Source: an uncultured Bacilli bacterium
GTDB taxonomy: Bacteria; Bacillota_I; Bacilli_A; RF39; UBA660
Direction: 5' to 3'
Assembly: GCA_944373145.1 (NCBI GenBank)
Contig: CALWAL010000005.1
Span: forward strand, 62,001 to 126,000
DNA: 64,000 nucleotides
The translations under genes were made by a program, and so were the position numbers. Numbering within the stretch: the stretch's first letter is position 1; each line of letters opens with the position of its first letter. Of the stretch, positions 50,708-58,382 are shown piece after piece. The notes under the pieces are model-generated. The model worked only from the letters and a program-made list of their open reading frames with translations, searched no databases and was not told the DNA's origin.

Positions 50708-51406
50708 TTATGAAGATAAAATCCAGTTAATAATACTTTTTTTTATTTCGTAGTACTCGTAGCTTTCAAATTGCATATTGGCAATACAATATCGCTTATT
50801 AGAAATATGTGCACAAAACATGCATTCGTAAAGGTCAAAACAATCTTGAATAAAAATAGAATTACTAATTTTATTAGAGCATATAACACTATAACTATTG
50901 CTACAATTTTTAGAGTCATCTGTTCTAATACAAAAATTACAAGTGTTTGAGCGTTGAGAAGCTAATAGATATTCACTGTAACTACAAGAATCACAGTAAA
51001 TAATATTTTTAGAGTCTAAGCAATCAGTTGAGCGATAAACATTTTCAGAACGATATATTGTATCACTTTTACTTACATTAATGGAGTCATATACTCTTTC
51101 TGTTGTTGTTAAATTAATTGTACTCCATATATCAATAATTTCTTGTAAATTTTTTACATCTTTTTTTTCAAGCATCCATCCTGTTGTTGTCTCACGTTTT
51201 TCCATATTATTATTTGTAATAAAACGTCCGTTATTAATAGAGTCCGCCCAAGTTATTTCATTAGTAGTAGAATCGTTAACCTGTTGTGGTAATTTGATAT
51301 CAAAAGCAAATTTATTTAATATTTCTTCTAATGTATAATGATTATTAGTATTGAAAACTTGCATAAATATTTTATTAACAATTTGAAGTGCTACAGCATC
51401 ATTCAT
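50708..51406 (-). CDS. Cys-rich hexapeptide-periodic protein paired with the ATPase
   Basis: 232 residues. An N-terminal 95-residue region (TLEEILNKFAFDIKLPQQV, ITWADSINNGRFITN) precedes about 100 residues with a six-residue rhythm: SINVSK, SDTIYR, SENVYR, STDCLD, SKNIIY and so on. It turns Cys-rich (CDSC, CNFC, NCSN, DCFD, ECMFC) and ends SNKRYCIANMQFESYEYYEIK. The pattern suggests a small beta-helix with stacked cysteines, like the C-terminal module often annotated 'caib/baif' in candidate-phyla genomes. Start codon overlaps the ATPase stop (TAATG), so the two are translationally coupled. Confidence 0.75.
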   Translation of the reverse strand: MNDAVALQIVNKIFMQVFNTNNHYTLEEILNKFAFDIKLPQQVNDSTTNEITWADSINNGRFITNNNMEKRETTTGWMLEKKDVKNLQEIIDIWSTINLTTTERVYDSINVSKSDTIYRSENVYRSTDCLDSKNIIYCDSCSYSEYLLASQRSNTCNFCIRTDDSKNCSNSYSVICSNKISNSIFIQDCFDLYECMFCAHISNKRYCIANMQFESYEYYEIKKSIINWILSS

Positions 51407-53253
51407 TATTTCACGTCCTTTCTGCTTGATGATGTGGTAAGTAAAATGTCTTTTAAATTAATTGTGTTATCAATTTGAAATTTGGTTTCAAATTTTGGCA
51501 AACATTCATTGTTTATTATAGCATTAGAATTATTTACTTTTATACGAGGAATACTTTGATAATCAAGAGTTGAACCTTTAAAAGCCGGTAATAAAATGCC
51601 ATTAGCATCTATACGTACGATACATTCACGATTATTCAATTCAGTAAGTAACTTTATTTTTCGGTCTTTAGTATCTTCTAAAGGAATTTTCATATCAAAA
51701 TTATCAACTAATATATTAGCATCCATTTGCGAGATACGAAAAATATAATAGTTAACAATATTCGCAAAAATAGCGTTTCGTAATTGTTCAGATATTTGAC
51801 TAAAATATTGACCAGCTAAAATTAAAGATAAATTGTACTTTCTAGCTTCTGATAAAAAACGTGCTAAAATAGGATTTTCAATGACCGAAACTTCATCAAC
51901 AACAAAAATAATGTGTTCGTTAATGGTATAACTTTGAATGATTGTTAATAGTTGTTGCATAACTAATCCAGCTATAGTCTTAGTAACCTTATCACCAAGT
52001 TTGGTACGATCTAAAGAAAATAGTGTTAAAAAGTTATCGTGAATAGTATTTTTTAGATTAGCAAAATTTTCGTTCTTATTAAAAACGGGAAGCATTTCCA
52101 TCTCATCAATGAAACCAATAATAGGTGAAATAGCTTCACCATATGATTTAGTTTTTAAATCGTTAAAATCAGTTAGAAAAAAATCAATGACACTTATTGG
52201 AATATTATTTTGATGTTTTTTTATCAAATTAGTACGATATTCTAAATTTAAAAGTAAATTGCGTAAATTTTGAAAATTAAATGATTCATCAGTTAATAGT
52301 AAGTGAATAGCATGTCTTAAAACACGCTCTAGTTTAGAATTGTATTGATCGGCAATTAATGATTTAAAAAGTTCTAATAATAATTCATTTGCAGCAATTA
52401 CGTCATCACTATTATTAATAAATAAGTCAATACTATCTATGGTATTTTTAAAATCAATGACGCGACTAAATCCACCAATATCATTTTCTAAAGCTGCATG
52501 TGGATCGATAACAACAACTTTGTATTTGGCTTTTAAATTGCAATTATTATTGATATTACTAATGATAGAACTAATAAATTTTGATTTTCCTGAACCACTA
52601 GATCCTAAAATAATGGAATGTTTATCAAAATTATAGCTAGTTTGATTTAAGTAAAAATCGCCTTGCAAATAAGGAAAAGTATCTACTTTAAGTAAAGCAG
52701 AGGATGAATCGCTATTTAATAAATGAAGACATTTATTTATATCTAAATATTTAGGTGCACTTTTATAAAAATATCTTTTATTACCCTCAAAATCGAGTGA
52801 CAAAAGATTAATGGGTATTGCACCTAAAATCCTATATTTATAACTAATATTGCTTTTTCTTAAATAGATATATATTTTACTTCTTATTTTATTGGGCGTA
52901 ATTTTACGAAACATAATTTCTAATCGATCGACAGTTCCTTTATTTTTTATTTCAGTATTATTAATAATATCTATTAAACTATCATAAAAACGTGTTAAAT
53001 AGAACTTTCTTTTTTGATAATTAATATCATTAATTTCACTTTTTTTTAATAAAAAAGAATTCAAATTGTTAAGAGTTGCCGGCAAACTGCATTTTGATTG
53101 AACAAAGTATCTAATTAGATTTTTATCATTTGTAATAATTAATTTCCATGTTTGAAAAATTCCATTGTAATGTGAAATACTTTTGATTAATTCGGCCCAA
53201 TCATTTTTTGATATTTCTTTTTTTGTAAGATATATTTCTGACGCTAACCCCAT
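51406..53253 (-). CDS. HerA/VirB4-like ATPase of unknown role
   Basis: 615 residues. An N-terminal region of about 200 residues is followed by ILGSSGSGKSKFISSI (Walker A, near 219), VVIDPHAALENDIGG, a helical insert, IIFVVDEVSVIENPILARFL (Walker B, near 449), LSLILAGQYFSQISEQLRNA (sensor/arginine-finger region) and a C-terminal beta tail. This fits the FtsK-HerA branch close to VirB4/TraG and DUF87 proteins: ring ATPases that move DNA or protein. No other conjugation gene is nearby, so it is not a transfer cluster. Start at ATG after GAGGTGACGATT. Confidence 0.85.
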   Translation of the reverse strand: MGLASEIYLTKKEISKNDWAELIKSISHYNGIFQTWKLIITNDKNLIRYFVQSKCSLPATLNNLNSFLLKKSEINDINYQKRKFYLTRFYDSLIDIINNTEIKNKGTVDRLEIMFRKITPNKIRSKIYIYLRKSNISYKYRILGAIPINLLSLDFEGNKRYFYKSAPKYLDINKCLHLLNSDSSSALLKVDTFPYLQGDFYLNQTSYNFDKHSIILGSSGSGKSKFISSIISNINNNCNLKAKYKVVVIDPHAALENDIGGFSRVIDFKNTIDSIDLFINNSDDVIAANELLLELFKSLIADQYNSKLERVLRHAIHLLLTDESFNFQNLRNLLLNLEYRTNLIKKHQNNIPISVIDFFLTDFNDLKTKSYGEAISPIIGFIDEMEMLPVFNKNENFANLKNTIHDNFLTLFSLDRTKLGDKVTKTIAGLVMQQLLTIIQSYTINEHIIFVVDEVSVIENPILARFLSEARKYNLSLILAGQYFSQISEQLRNAIFANIVNYYIFRISQMDANILVDNFDMKIPLEDTKDRKIKLLTELNNRECIVRIDANGILLPAFKGSTLDYQSIPRIKVNNSNAIINNECLPKFETKFQIDNTINLKDILLTTSSSRKDVK

Positions 53254-53293
53254 AATCGTCACCTCGATAAAAATTATAACAAAATATAAAAAT

Positions 53294-55183: not shown

Positions 55184-56080
55184 GTGAAACAATATTATAT
55201 TGATTTAGGATCTTCAACAATTAAAGTTTATGAATATGAAGAAAATTTGAAATTATTAGAAGAAAAATCAATTTATTTTAAGAATGATTTTGATGCTGTT
55301 AAAGGGATTAGTGCGGATAATCTAACCGCTTTATGTGCTTATTTTGAAGAATTAAAAAATAAGTATTCTTTAAAATATGAGAATACAAGTATTTATGTAA
55401 CTGGCATATTTAGAAATTTATCACAAATTAAAAAAAATGAGTTACTAAAATTATTCAATGATAAATATGATTTACATTTTAATATTATTAGTCACGGTAT
55501 TGAAAATTATTATTTGGGAAAGGCAATGAATAATGATTATAATGGTTCTAAAGTATTAATTATTAATATGGGAGGCAAAACAACTGAATTAGTAACTTTT
55601 ATTGGCTCTAAAATCGTAGATACTAAGAATTTAAATATTGGAGTTGCTGATTTATTAAATAATTTTGACAGAGTTAATGAAACTTATAGTGGACATACAT
55701 TAGAAGAGATGGAAACATTTGTTTTTGATAAATTAGCTGATATAGAATTAGATAACGATTACGATTGTGCTATATTTACAGGTGGTGAAGAGAGATTTGA
55801 ATTATTAACGGGTTTTAATTTAGTTGAAAACACTTTATTTAACGATGGTATTCATAAATATATGGTTAGTTTAGATGATTATATTAAAGGGACAAAAAAA
55901 GTTTTCTTTGATTTAACATTAGAAGAATTATATGCACTTATGCCGTCAAATCCTAAATGGATGGATGGTGCTCGCAGTGGTGCGATTATTCCGCTAGTTC
56001 TTTTCAAAAAAACAAATGTTGAATGGATTATCCCATCGGATTTAAATTTAATTAATGGTGTAATTAATGATTTAAAATAA
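55184..56080 (+). CDS. Ppx/GppA-like ASKHA protein
   Basis: 298 residues. YYIDLGSSTIKVYEYEE (phosphate 1), IENYYLGKAM (Ppx E-x3-LG region, with Asn-Tyr for the usual acids), LIINMGGKTTELVTF (phosphate 2) and a C-terminal MPSNPKWMDGARSGAIIPL, which matches the L-x-P-x-R-x-D-x-hhxGAxI block of Ppx/GppA. It may hydrolyse polyphosphate or a nucleotide phosphate, but the changes at conserved positions leave this open. GTG start with TAGGTGAT. First of three genes with a PurA homologue. Confidence 0.75.
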   Translation: MKQYYIDLGSSTIKVYEYEENLKLLEEKSIYFKNDFDAVKGISADNLTALCAYFEELKNKYSLKYENTSIYVTGIFRNLSQIKKNELLKLFNDKYDLHFNIISHGIENYYLGKAMNNDYNGSKVLIINMGGKTTELVTFIGSKIVDTKNLNIGVADLLNNFDRVNETYSGHTLEEMETFVFDKLADIELDNDYDCAIFTGGEERFELLTGFNLVENTLFNDGIHKYMVSLDDYIKGTKKVFFDLTLEELYALMPSNPKWMDGARSGAIIPLVLFKKTNVEWIIPSDLNLINGVINDLK

Positions 56081-56098
56081 AATTGTCTAGGGGGATTT

Positions 56099-57475
56099 AT
56101 GGTAAAAAATGTTATTTCGGTAATTGATGGAGCCGCTGGAAGTTGCGGTAAGGCAAAAGTGGTTGGGGAAATTGCTACTGATAAAAGTGTTCGATTAGGA
56201 GCAGCTATTACTAATTGCATGCCTAATGCCGGTCACACGTTTGTGAGTGCAAAAGGTCGTGTGACAGTATTTCGAAATATTCCTGTATCAATTGTTAATC
56301 CTAAAACAGAATTGTTTATTGGACCTGGTTCGGCCATTGATATGGATGTATTTAAAGAGGAATATAACGCTTGTCTACCATATTTAGGTAGTCGAAAAAT
56401 ATATGTTCATGAAATGGTTCCACTTATTGAACAACGTCATAAACAATATGAGAGGGAGCATATTAAAAGTGGTTCGACTTTTAAAGGTTGCGGAGCCGTT
56501 ACACAAGAAAAAGTTATTCGTGATAAAAAATTAGAATTTTATAAAACTTTTCGCAATGCAGTTGTTTGTTCAAATGAAGAATGGTTAGAAAGATTATATC
56601 AACATTTAGATAATCCTTTTGAATATGTCTTAATGGAGGGAGCCCAGGGTTGCGATTTATCTTTAAATCATAGCGGTAATTATCCTTATGTGACAAGTCG
56701 TAATGTATCAACGGCACAACTATTAGCTGATTGTGGTATTTCGCCAGAGCATTTGTTACAGACAATTATGGTTATTAGACCATTTCCTATTCGAATTAGT
56801 AACATTACTAAAAATGGGGAGATAATTTATACGGGTTCTTATGGAAGTGGGGCAGAACTTACTTGGACTCAGATTAATTTAGCTTCAATGTATGGTGGTT
56901 ATCCTTTTGCAGGTGATGTTGAGTGTTATGAAAATAATATGACTCTTAAACGAATAAAAAAAGTTATGGGGCATTGCGCTGAAGTTTATTTAAAACAAGT
57001 TTTAGGTAATAATTATCGTCAAGTTAAACCTTGTAATATTACTTTATTACAAGCTTTGGAATTGGAAAGATTATTTTATAAGACTCGTGGATTATCAGAA
57101 TACCAAACAAAATTTTTAAATTTAGGAATGTATGATATTGAATATGCACCTAATACAATTATTGATCAGTCTGAACAGACAACGGTTACTAAAATGGAAA
57201 GAAGAATATTTGATTTAGATATAAAAAAATTAAAAACCAATTGTCAGATTAATACTCCATCAAGTTTATATTTGAATTTTTTTCAACATTTAGGGCTAGA
57301 ATATAATGGCGCTAGAGGAAATTATGAAGATTATTATTTTAATCGTTATATTCGTAATTATTTAGATTGGCTTGAAGAAAATACTGGTGTTGAAATATCA
57401 GCACTTGGTACAGGTGCTAAGAATGGTGAGAGAATTTTAAAAAAACGTTTTATTAAAGATATTAAGCGTGATTAA
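56099..57475 (+). CDS. divergent adenylosuccinate synthetase homologue (PurZ-like active site)
   Basis: 458 residues aligned with PurA: VIDGAAGSCGKAK at residues 8-20 (PurA G-D-E-G-K-G-K), NCMPNAGHTF (catalytic His 46), SGSTFKGCGAV, MEGAQGCDLSLNHSGNYPYV (PurA EGAQG-x-LD-x-D-x-G-TYPFVT), and TTVTKMERRIFD. The catalytic Asp of PurA is Ser 15 here and the next Glu is Cys 16. As I recall, Asp-to-Ser/Gly at this site marks phage PurZ, which joins Asp to dGMP. The real substrate is unknown. RBS AGGGGGATTT. In operon with a Ppx-like protein and DUF1848. Confidence 0.85.
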   Translation: MVKNVISVIDGAAGSCGKAKVVGEIATDKSVRLGAAITNCMPNAGHTFVSAKGRVTVFRNIPVSIVNPKTELFIGPGSAIDMDVFKEEYNACLPYLGSRKIYVHEMVPLIEQRHKQYEREHIKSGSTFKGCGAVTQEKVIRDKKLEFYKTFRNAVVCSNEEWLERLYQHLDNPFEYVLMEGAQGCDLSLNHSGNYPYVTSRNVSTAQLLADCGISPEHLLQTIMVIRPFPIRISNITKNGEIIYTGSYGSGAELTWTQINLASMYGGYPFAGDVECYENNMTLKRIKKVMGHCAEVYLKQVLGNNYRQVKPCNITLLQALELERLFYKTRGLSEYQTKFLNLGMYDIEYAPNTIIDQSEQTTVTKMERRIFDLDIKKLKTNCQINTPSSLYLNFFQHLGLEYNGARGNYEDYYFNRYIRNYLDWLEENTGVEISALGTGAKNGERILKKRFIKDIKRD

Positions 57476-57497
57476 ATAATAAGGCGATGATGTATAA

Positions 57498-58382
57498 ATG
57501 ATTTTAAATGTTAGTGGTAGAACTGATATTGTAGCATTTTATAGTGAGTGGTTTATGAAACGCTATGAAGAAGGATACGTTGATGTGCGAAATCCATTTA
57601 ATTCTAAAATGGTAAGTCGTATATATTTTAAAGACGTCGATGCCATTCTTTTTTGTACAAAAAATCCTAAACCTATCTTGAAATATTTAAATAAAATTGA
57701 AAAACCAATTATTTTTCATATAACTTTAACCTCGTATAAAAAAGATATTGAACCTAATGTTCCACCTAAGGGTGAAATAATCAAAGATGTAAAAAAAATA
57801 TCTAAGATAATTGGAAGTGATAATCTATATATTCGATATGATCCAATTTTTATTAATGATAAATATAATATACAATATCATATTAAAGCCTTCAATCATT
57901 TATGTTGTCTTTTAAATGGTTATGTTAAACATATTATTGTATCTTTTATTGATGATTATAAAAATGTTCGAAAAAACGCCAATGCAATACATTATAGAAA
58001 GTTAACAGAAGATGATTATAAGATTATTGGAAAATTTTTTAGTCAAAGTGCTTATGAAAATGGAATGACTGTTCAAACATGTTTTGAAGATAGAACTCTT
58101 GTTGAATATGGTTTTATTAAAGGTGAATGTTTATCACATGAACTTGCTTTCAAAATAACAAACAAGATTTATAAAAAAGGAACAGCTAGAAAAGGTAATA
58201 AATGTCAGTGTGTTCAAATGGTAGATATCGGGGCCTATAATTGTTGTAAACATTTTTGTAAGTATTGTTATGCAAATTATGATGAAAAACGAGTAATAGA
58301 CAATTGTTTAAAGCACCATAACTCTTCATCACTACTAATTGGTAACCTTGAAAATGATGATGTTATTAAGATAAGAAAATAG
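57498..58382 (+). CDS. DUF1848 protein (radical-SAM-like, Fe-S)
   Basis: 294 residues: ILNVSGRTDIVAFYSEWFM, VRNPFNSKMVSRIYF, DAILFCTKNPKPIL, YIRYDPIF and a Cys-dense C-terminus CQCVQMVDIGAYNCCKHFC / KYCYAN (about 236-258). DUF1848 proteins have a TIM-like SPL-related fold; the cysteines probably bind an Fe-S cluster. Substrate unknown. Twenty-two bases after the PurA homologue, with AAGGCGATGATG before ATG. Confidence 0.88.
   Translation: MILNVSGRTDIVAFYSEWFMKRYEEGYVDVRNPFNSKMVSRIYFKDVDAILFCTKNPKPILKYLNKIEKPIIFHITLTSYKKDIEPNVPPKGEIIKDVKKISKIIGSDNLYIRYDPIFINDKYNIQYHIKAFNHLCCLLNGYVKHIIVSFIDDYKNVRKNANAIHYRKLTEDDYKIIGKFFSQSAYENGMTVQTCFEDRTLVEYGFIKGECLSHELAFKITNKIYKKGTARKGNKCQCVQMVDIGAYNCCKHFCKYCYANYDEKRVIDNCLKHHNSSSLLIGNLENDDVIKIRK

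Follow-up and report, generated by a model that had tools for sequence, protein, structure and literature searches.

A mobile, phage-derived PurZ-like and Ppx-like gene pair in RF39-type Bacilli lacking PurB

Analysis of a 64,000-nucleotide stretch of DNA (the window), interior to contig C5 (bases 62001–126000) of a 1.29 Mb, 95% complete metagenome-assembled genome (MAG), established the existence of a cellular, mobile and phage-derived PurZ–Ppx gene pair that is maintained under selection in bacteria without PurB and is found almost only in RF39-type Bacilli. It is reasonably probable that in these gut bacteria the cassette, a PurZ-type ligase of phage origin accompanied by a Ppx-like protein, yields a succino-nucleotide as its end product.

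The earlier note on this DNA had described three co-directional genes lying within about 20 bases of one another, and the three open reading frames were duly found, all on the plus strand and separated by gaps of 18 and 22 nt (Table 1). A scan for promoters and terminators returned nothing beyond chance level.

Table 1. Positions of the genes and of selected features within the window
Feature	Position	Strand	Basis
Ppx/GppA-like ASKHA protein, 298 aa, GTG start	55184..56080	+	Pfam, Foldseek, alignment
AGGGGG Shine-Dalgarno-like sequence ahead of the PurZ-like ATG	56089..56094	+	sequence directly
PurZ-like ligase, 458 aa	56099..57475	+	family profiles, tree, pocket map, structure model
P-loop G14-S-C-G-K-A-K20, with Ser15 at the PurA Asp13 position	56138..56158	+	alignment
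Extra region of ~70–95 aa (residues about 262–356), before the Asp-binding loop	56882..57166	+	alignment; model
Aspartate-binding loop T361-TVTKMER-R369	57179..57205	+	alignment
DUF1848 protein, 294 aa, co-directional, outside the conserved module	57498..58382	+	Pfam, neighbour comparison

Affiliation of the ligase and the missing lyase

The 458-aa protein matched Pfam PF00709 (Adenylsucc_synt) with an E value of 2.3e-25, and the best of the curated models was PurZ (NF038379), which returned 186.5 bits compared with 103 for purA (TIGR00184), models for archaeal-type and bacterial purA ranking after it. Because that score falls below the curated cut-off for NF038379 (300 bits), the protein is termed PurZ-like rather than PurZ. 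A search of PHROGs assigned it to the phage 2-amino adenylosuccinate synthetase family (3e-50). A PMSF tree of 87 rows nested the bacterial clade (100/100) within the viral PurZ group (100/99), apart from both bacterial and archaeal PurA, and placed it in a subclade (98/93) together with Bacillus phage vB_BpsS-140, four phage contigs (L144, L145, L150 and L158) and the second PurZ-like protein of genome G180, a short one. Pyrococcus PurA clustered with its bacterial counterparts; PurZ0 and plasmid genes occupied other branches. An AlphaFold2 model of the protein (pLDDT 93.9, pTM 0.92), deployed as a Foldseek query, gave as its top PDB matches the phiVC8 PurZ/DgsS structures 6fko, 6tnh and 6fm1, together with 7odx, the dGMP-bound phiVC8 enzyme ranking first. 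Tree, profiles and structural matches thus bore out the proposal that the enzyme is PurZ-like and not PurA, and the tree that had been called for placed it in the PurZ group, outside ordinary bacterial PurA. Within the PurZ subclade that holds the bacterial clade, we are aware of no protein that has been assayed biochemically.

Inspection of the sequence confirmed each of the active-site features previously claimed, namely an Asp to Ser change in the P-loop (G14-S15-C16-G17-K18-A19-K20) combined with retention of His46, the EGAQG block and an Arg-bearing loop. The PurZ-like motifs comprise NAGHT (His46), the E180-G-A-Q-G block and TTVTKMERRIFD, and the aspartate-binding loop continues T361-T-V-T-K-M-E-R-R369-I-F-D. 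Serine occupied the PurA Asp13 position in 61 of 61 aligned relatives, in which the other catalytic and substrate residues were retained, and in 80 of 80 viral relatives; its invariance in the former set, combined with purifying selection on both core genes (see below), indicates that it is neither chance nor a sequencing slip.

When the pocket was mapped onto S-2L PurZ, using the residue roles reported for that enzyme (PMC8342488), essentially all base-pocket, catalytic and Asp-loop residues proved to be retained in the PurZ-like clade, including S15, N43, A44, G45, H46, T47, G125, S126, T127, Q183, R232, the TTVT..RR loop, N393 and F394. Residue R201 is likewise of the PurZ type, PurA having Ser there. 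Where PurA has its GTP-selecting Asp (position 333), the protein has Q396, the relatives carrying Gln (48) or Glu (9), and ATP-using PurZ similarly has Gln or Asn in place of this Asp. The residues that accommodate dGMP, Asp and ATP in PurZ are present on the residue map, with a difference at the 2'-OH gate residue I233, which is Ile in all relatives and Val in both PurZ and PurA. A further region of some 70–95 residues, modelled by AlphaFold2 as helical, is characteristic of a long clade and is mostly missing from a short clade (L086–L089) and from phage PurZ; the long clade also has GKA in place of GKG in its P-loop and a long stem branch (0.73), and on account of these three features the acceptor could have changed.

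Phage PurZ/DgsS (succino-2-amino-deoxyadenylate synthetase; S-2L 7odx, phiVC8 6fm1) shares with the bacterial protein its clade, the Asp13 to Ser change, the TSR motif, the TTVT..RR loop, the ATP-side residues and the fold, whereas the bacterial gene is chromosomal, mobile between bacteria, accompanied by a Ppx-like partner and resident in hosts without PurB, its long clade being additionally distinguished by the P-loop variant and the insert. PurA has in common with it the superfamily fold, the P-loop Lys, the catalytic His and the Asp-binding loop, but the PurZ-like protein lacks both Asp13 and the GTP-selecting Asp, lies outside the PurA clade and has no PurB partner. PurZ0 (7vf6) shows the same Asp to Ser change within the PurA superfamily but sits on a separate, more distant branch.

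The 458-aa protein is the sole PF00709 protein of its genome, and the second canonical purA for which the earlier note had suggested a search was not found there; a weak second hit (G000:C2:31608) was a small zinc-ribbon-like protein and neither purA nor purB. Two observations that the same note had associated with ordinary PurA diverged, the gene being the only one of its kind in the genome but its product lying outside ordinary PurA in the tree. Nor was any match to apt (adenine salvage) recorded above threshold in this genome. The gene purB was absent from the genome and almost entirely so from the family: PF00206 (Lyase_1, covering PurB/ArgH/FumC-type enzymes) was not detected in 55 of the 57 carrier genomes by a search that was positive in 14 of 14 control genomes, two carriers having a Lyase_1 protein and six a canonical purA. 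RF39 genomes are known to be reduced, with many auxotrophies (PMC6784871), and phage PurZ depends on the PurB of its host (PMC8342488, PMC12783734).

In these 55 carriers neither adenylosuccinate nor succino-2-amino-dAMP could be processed by the known route, a circumstance which argues against both an ordinary PurA and a simple 2-aminoadenine pathway. Since the genome of the window encodes neither PurB nor any other Lyase_1 protein, its PurZ-like protein cannot serve as a normal PurA. Barring an unrelated lyase, the product of the enzyme would remain a succino-nucleotide in these hosts. The missing lyase is the strangest fact of this system.

A number of further PurA- and PurZ-related genes were encountered. 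Two rhizobial conjugative plasmids (S. medicae pMl5, L142:3986-6048; A. rubi pW2_73_2, L143:3458-5750) carry PurA-like genes with GSEGK (Asp13 to Ser) that lie elsewhere in the tree and in non-canonical two-gene contexts, one being followed by a weakly Dcd-like protein and the other being fused at its N-terminus to a P-loop kinase-like domain, with DUF7002 next in line. Both have the appearance of additional PurA/PurZ systems of a non-canonical kind. The second, short PurZ-like gene of G180 (contig C6, L129:2363-3883; GSCGKGK) directly follows a NUDIX hydrolase gene, on a contig that also carries a group II intron-type reverse transcriptase. Genome G175 (contig C7, L128:1479-6327) encodes a PurA paralogue of 477 aa with GDEGKGT, clustered with what appear, by sequence reading, to be aldolase-like, nucleoside kinase-like, protein kinase-like and vWA-like proteins. 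In phages of the sister subclade (Bacillus phage vB_BpsS-140, L139:5962-7083; L144, L145 and L150) PurZ is located within a replication module, no recognisable DatZ or MazZ gene being present in the stretch read around it, and these may possibly represent a distinct PurZ type.

Distribution, mobility and selection

Relatives of the PurZ-like protein are encoded at 58 loci in GTDB contigs, and an even sample of the class yielded matches to the clade only in the window's own family. Relatives are recorded as Candidatus Onthousia, Candidatus Ventrenecus and uncultured Bacilli/Tenericutes MAGs, the RF39 type. Even in the family the distribution is patchy: within the genus 3 of 12 genomes carry the gene, and within the family 7 of 85, three of them with a broken or truncated copy. 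Copies judged to be broken were recorded in G037, G009, L069, L090 and L092, and the gene surroundings varied between genomes. The LysR gene was tried as an anchor for the empty site and proved too divergent among members of the genus.

Pairwise distances for the PurZ-like and Ppx-like proteins were closely correlated across the 28 loci with both (r 0.85). A Mantel comparison of 24 genomes, for which seven ribosomal proteins were concatenated, gave an equivalent value (r 0.84; partial r 0.84 given the ribosomal proteins), whereas neither the PurZ-like (r 0.02, p 0.34) nor the Ppx-like protein (r 0.05, p 0.24) tracked the ribosomal distances, and it is concluded from this contrast that the two genes are transferred horizontally together. 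Individual comparisons depart from the ribosomal proteins in both directions: L048 and L054 are 93% identical in the PurZ-like protein and 80% in the ribosomal proteins, while the corresponding values for L086 and L088 are 76% and 95%. Mis-binned MAG contigs, probably including L039, could exaggerate this signal of mobility, but the pattern does not depend on one genome. Both genes are under purifying selection, with dN/dS values of about 0.06–0.22 (about 0.13) for the PurZ-like and 0.06–0.15 (about 0.08) for the Ppx-like gene. A prophage origin for the copy in the window was considered and discarded, IMG/VR viral contigs and phage records containing only distant PurZ and no close relative.

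The Ppx-like partner and other neighbouring genes

The description of the upstream gene as coding for a degenerate Ppx/GppA ASKHA protein was upheld. Its match to Pfam PF02541 (Ppx-GppA; E 5e-5) scored 23.3 against a gathering threshold of 27, the ortholog at L053 reaching 34.3, and with the window score below the cut-off the term degenerate is a fair one. A model of the 298-aa protein (pLDDT 79) nevertheless retrieved the Ppx fold, matching Aquifex Ppx/GppA (1t6c) with an E value of 2.8e-18 and a probability of 1.0, a probability shared by 7epq and 6pc0, with NTPDases lower in the list. Like established members of the family (1t6c, 6pc0) it has the ASKHA fold, a Glu that aligns with their catalytic one (E107, which is invariant) and a GGxTTE-type loop, the segment GGEERFELLTG being nearly invariant among the Ppx-like proteins; it differs from them in its sub-threshold Pfam score, its short length, its pairing with PurZ and the replacement by Asn128 of the Asp in the DxGGGSTE motif. 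The protein may hydrolyse phosphate bonds or may sense nucleotides; lacking the motif Asp, it may not be a hydrolase at all.

The Ppx-like gene lies directly upstream of the PurZ-like gene in about half of the loci, mostly with gaps of 14–24 nt. An ortholog was detected in 35 of the 57 carrier genomes, and short fragments containing stops in two more, so that some 22 assemblies are without an intact ortholog. Across the 85 family genomes, four contained both genes, three only the PurZ-like, two only the Ppx-like and 76 neither (Fisher p 2.4e-4). The partner was not found in phage records, and unlinked Ppx-like genes had no common downstream partner in the three loci for which genes were listed. 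A second Ppx-like protein (L127:6897-7784, G000:C2:34905-35768), ~26% identical and present in many genomes of the family, likewise lacks the motif Asp (IGGGGSTE); the cassette partner may have originated from it.

The downstream gene product is a clear DUF1848 protein (PF08902, 289.5 bits, E 4e-86) ending in CKHFCKYC, a CxxxCxxC pattern that resembles that of radical SAM enzymes but is C-terminal; the protein further gave a PADLOC hit, to RTasDUF1848 (8.8e-31). It had been proposed as the third member of a pathway, with conservation of the three-gene order as a suggested check. That order proved to be local, DUF1848 adjoining the PurZ-like gene in only 2 of ~62 loci (the window and L008); in L131 it occurs close to a Ppx-like gene that is not linked to PurZ. 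It was rejected as a third member, the conserved unit being the two genes for the Ppx-like and PurZ-like proteins.

Other neighbours vary, and include UDG-superfamily proteins, UvdE, NUDIX and DUF1848. UDG-superfamily proteins of several types lie next to or near the PurZ-like gene at five loci (L049:9403-10113, L067:9376-10095, L058:4281-4970, L082:3304-3966 and L083:4780-5445) as against 0 of 20 control regions; the difference is not significant and a partnership was not adopted. On the minus strand of the window, positions 50708–53262 encode a 232-aa protein without a Pfam match and a HerA/TrwB-like ATPase that PADLOC mad8 matches weakly. Both have relatives near PurZ in L042, and the 232-aa protein has one in L057 as well. 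DatZ, MazZ and DpoZ were not noticed beside the window genes, nor were they among the 25 listed of 155 Pfam families of neighbour proteins.

Proposed function and alternative readings

We infer what the ligase catalyses, what the Ppx-like protein contributes and how the cell uses the pair as follows. By the chemistry of phage PurZ, the ligase would probably phosphorylate the O6 of (d)GMP at the expense of ATP and join aspartate to it, generating N6-succino-2-amino-(d)AMP; (d)GMP is the most likely acceptor on the evidence of the pocket residues, and the free nucleoside or modified base suggested earlier as substrates gained no support. The Ppx-like protein would probably supply or sense the guanine nucleotide, for instance by hydrolysing (d)GTP in the way that MazZ serves phages, and because the hosts are without PurB the succino-nucleotide would probably be the end product. 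The cassette might then divert guanine (deoxy)nucleotide, perhaps against phages, or make a succino-nucleotide effector or a modified nucleotide.

It is improbable that the enzyme is a divergent but otherwise ordinary PurA, serving IMP salvage as the only adenylosuccinate synthetase of its genome. Its fold is that of PurA and no other PF00709 gene is present, but all relatives have lost Asp13, the pocket is of the PurZ type, the tree position is within viral PurZ, PurB and any other Lyase_1 protein are missing from 55 of 57 carriers, the gene itself is dispensed with by most of the family, and six carriers hold a canonical PurA besides. Less probable still, to the point of being negligible, is a functionless, decaying phage remnant, to which the broken copies might be ascribed: dN/dS values of about 0.13 and 0.08, the conserved catalytic residues and the joint transfer of intact gene pairs all oppose it, and for the clade as a whole the selection test refutes it.

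Among readings that assign the pair a use, a mobile cellular PurZ–Ppx module in which guanine (deoxy)nucleotides of host or invader end up as succino-2-amino-(d)AMP, for a new kind of nucleotide-based defence or signalling in PurB-less bacteria, is put forward tentatively. A mobile anti-phage or inter-element module, in which the pair drains (d)GTP/(d)GMP into succino-2-amino-(d)AMP on infection or produces it as a toxic or signal nucleotide, is possible if somewhat doubtful: draining nucleotide pools is a well-known means of defence, there is no PurB to recycle the product, and the cassette is patchy, horizontally moving, often broken and found at differing insertion sites, but no PADLOC model matches the pair and neither a sensor nor an effector domain is apparent. 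A defence island was also sought and no clear PADLOC signal obtained, the totals of 138 families for neighbours and 79 for random genes of the carriers failing to separate because single proteins hit many related models and both counts are inflated. An unlikely option is that the enzyme performs one step in the biosynthesis of a modified nucleotide that serves the cell (as a succino-nucleotide cofactor, an antimetabolite or a precursor for DNA or RNA modification), completed by non-PurB enzymes that vary with the host. An intact pocket under selection and neighbours such as the UDG-superfamily proteins, UvdE, NUDIX and DUF1848 are consistent with this, but there is no conserved third gene, and the UDG-like association is confined to the five loci noted above.

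PurZ is familiar as the phage enzyme that serves the making of 2-aminoadenine DNA. A 2026 survey of viral PurZ described the PurZ group as consisting of phage sequences and four archaeal sequences only (PMC12884076), and a literature search, with most subscription journals outside it, brought to light neither a bacterial PurZ clade nor a PurZ–Ppx pair. The occurrence of a selected and mobile bacterial PurZ clade, with a preferred partner, in hosts unable to finish the Z pathway implies that there is another use for succino-purine nucleotides.
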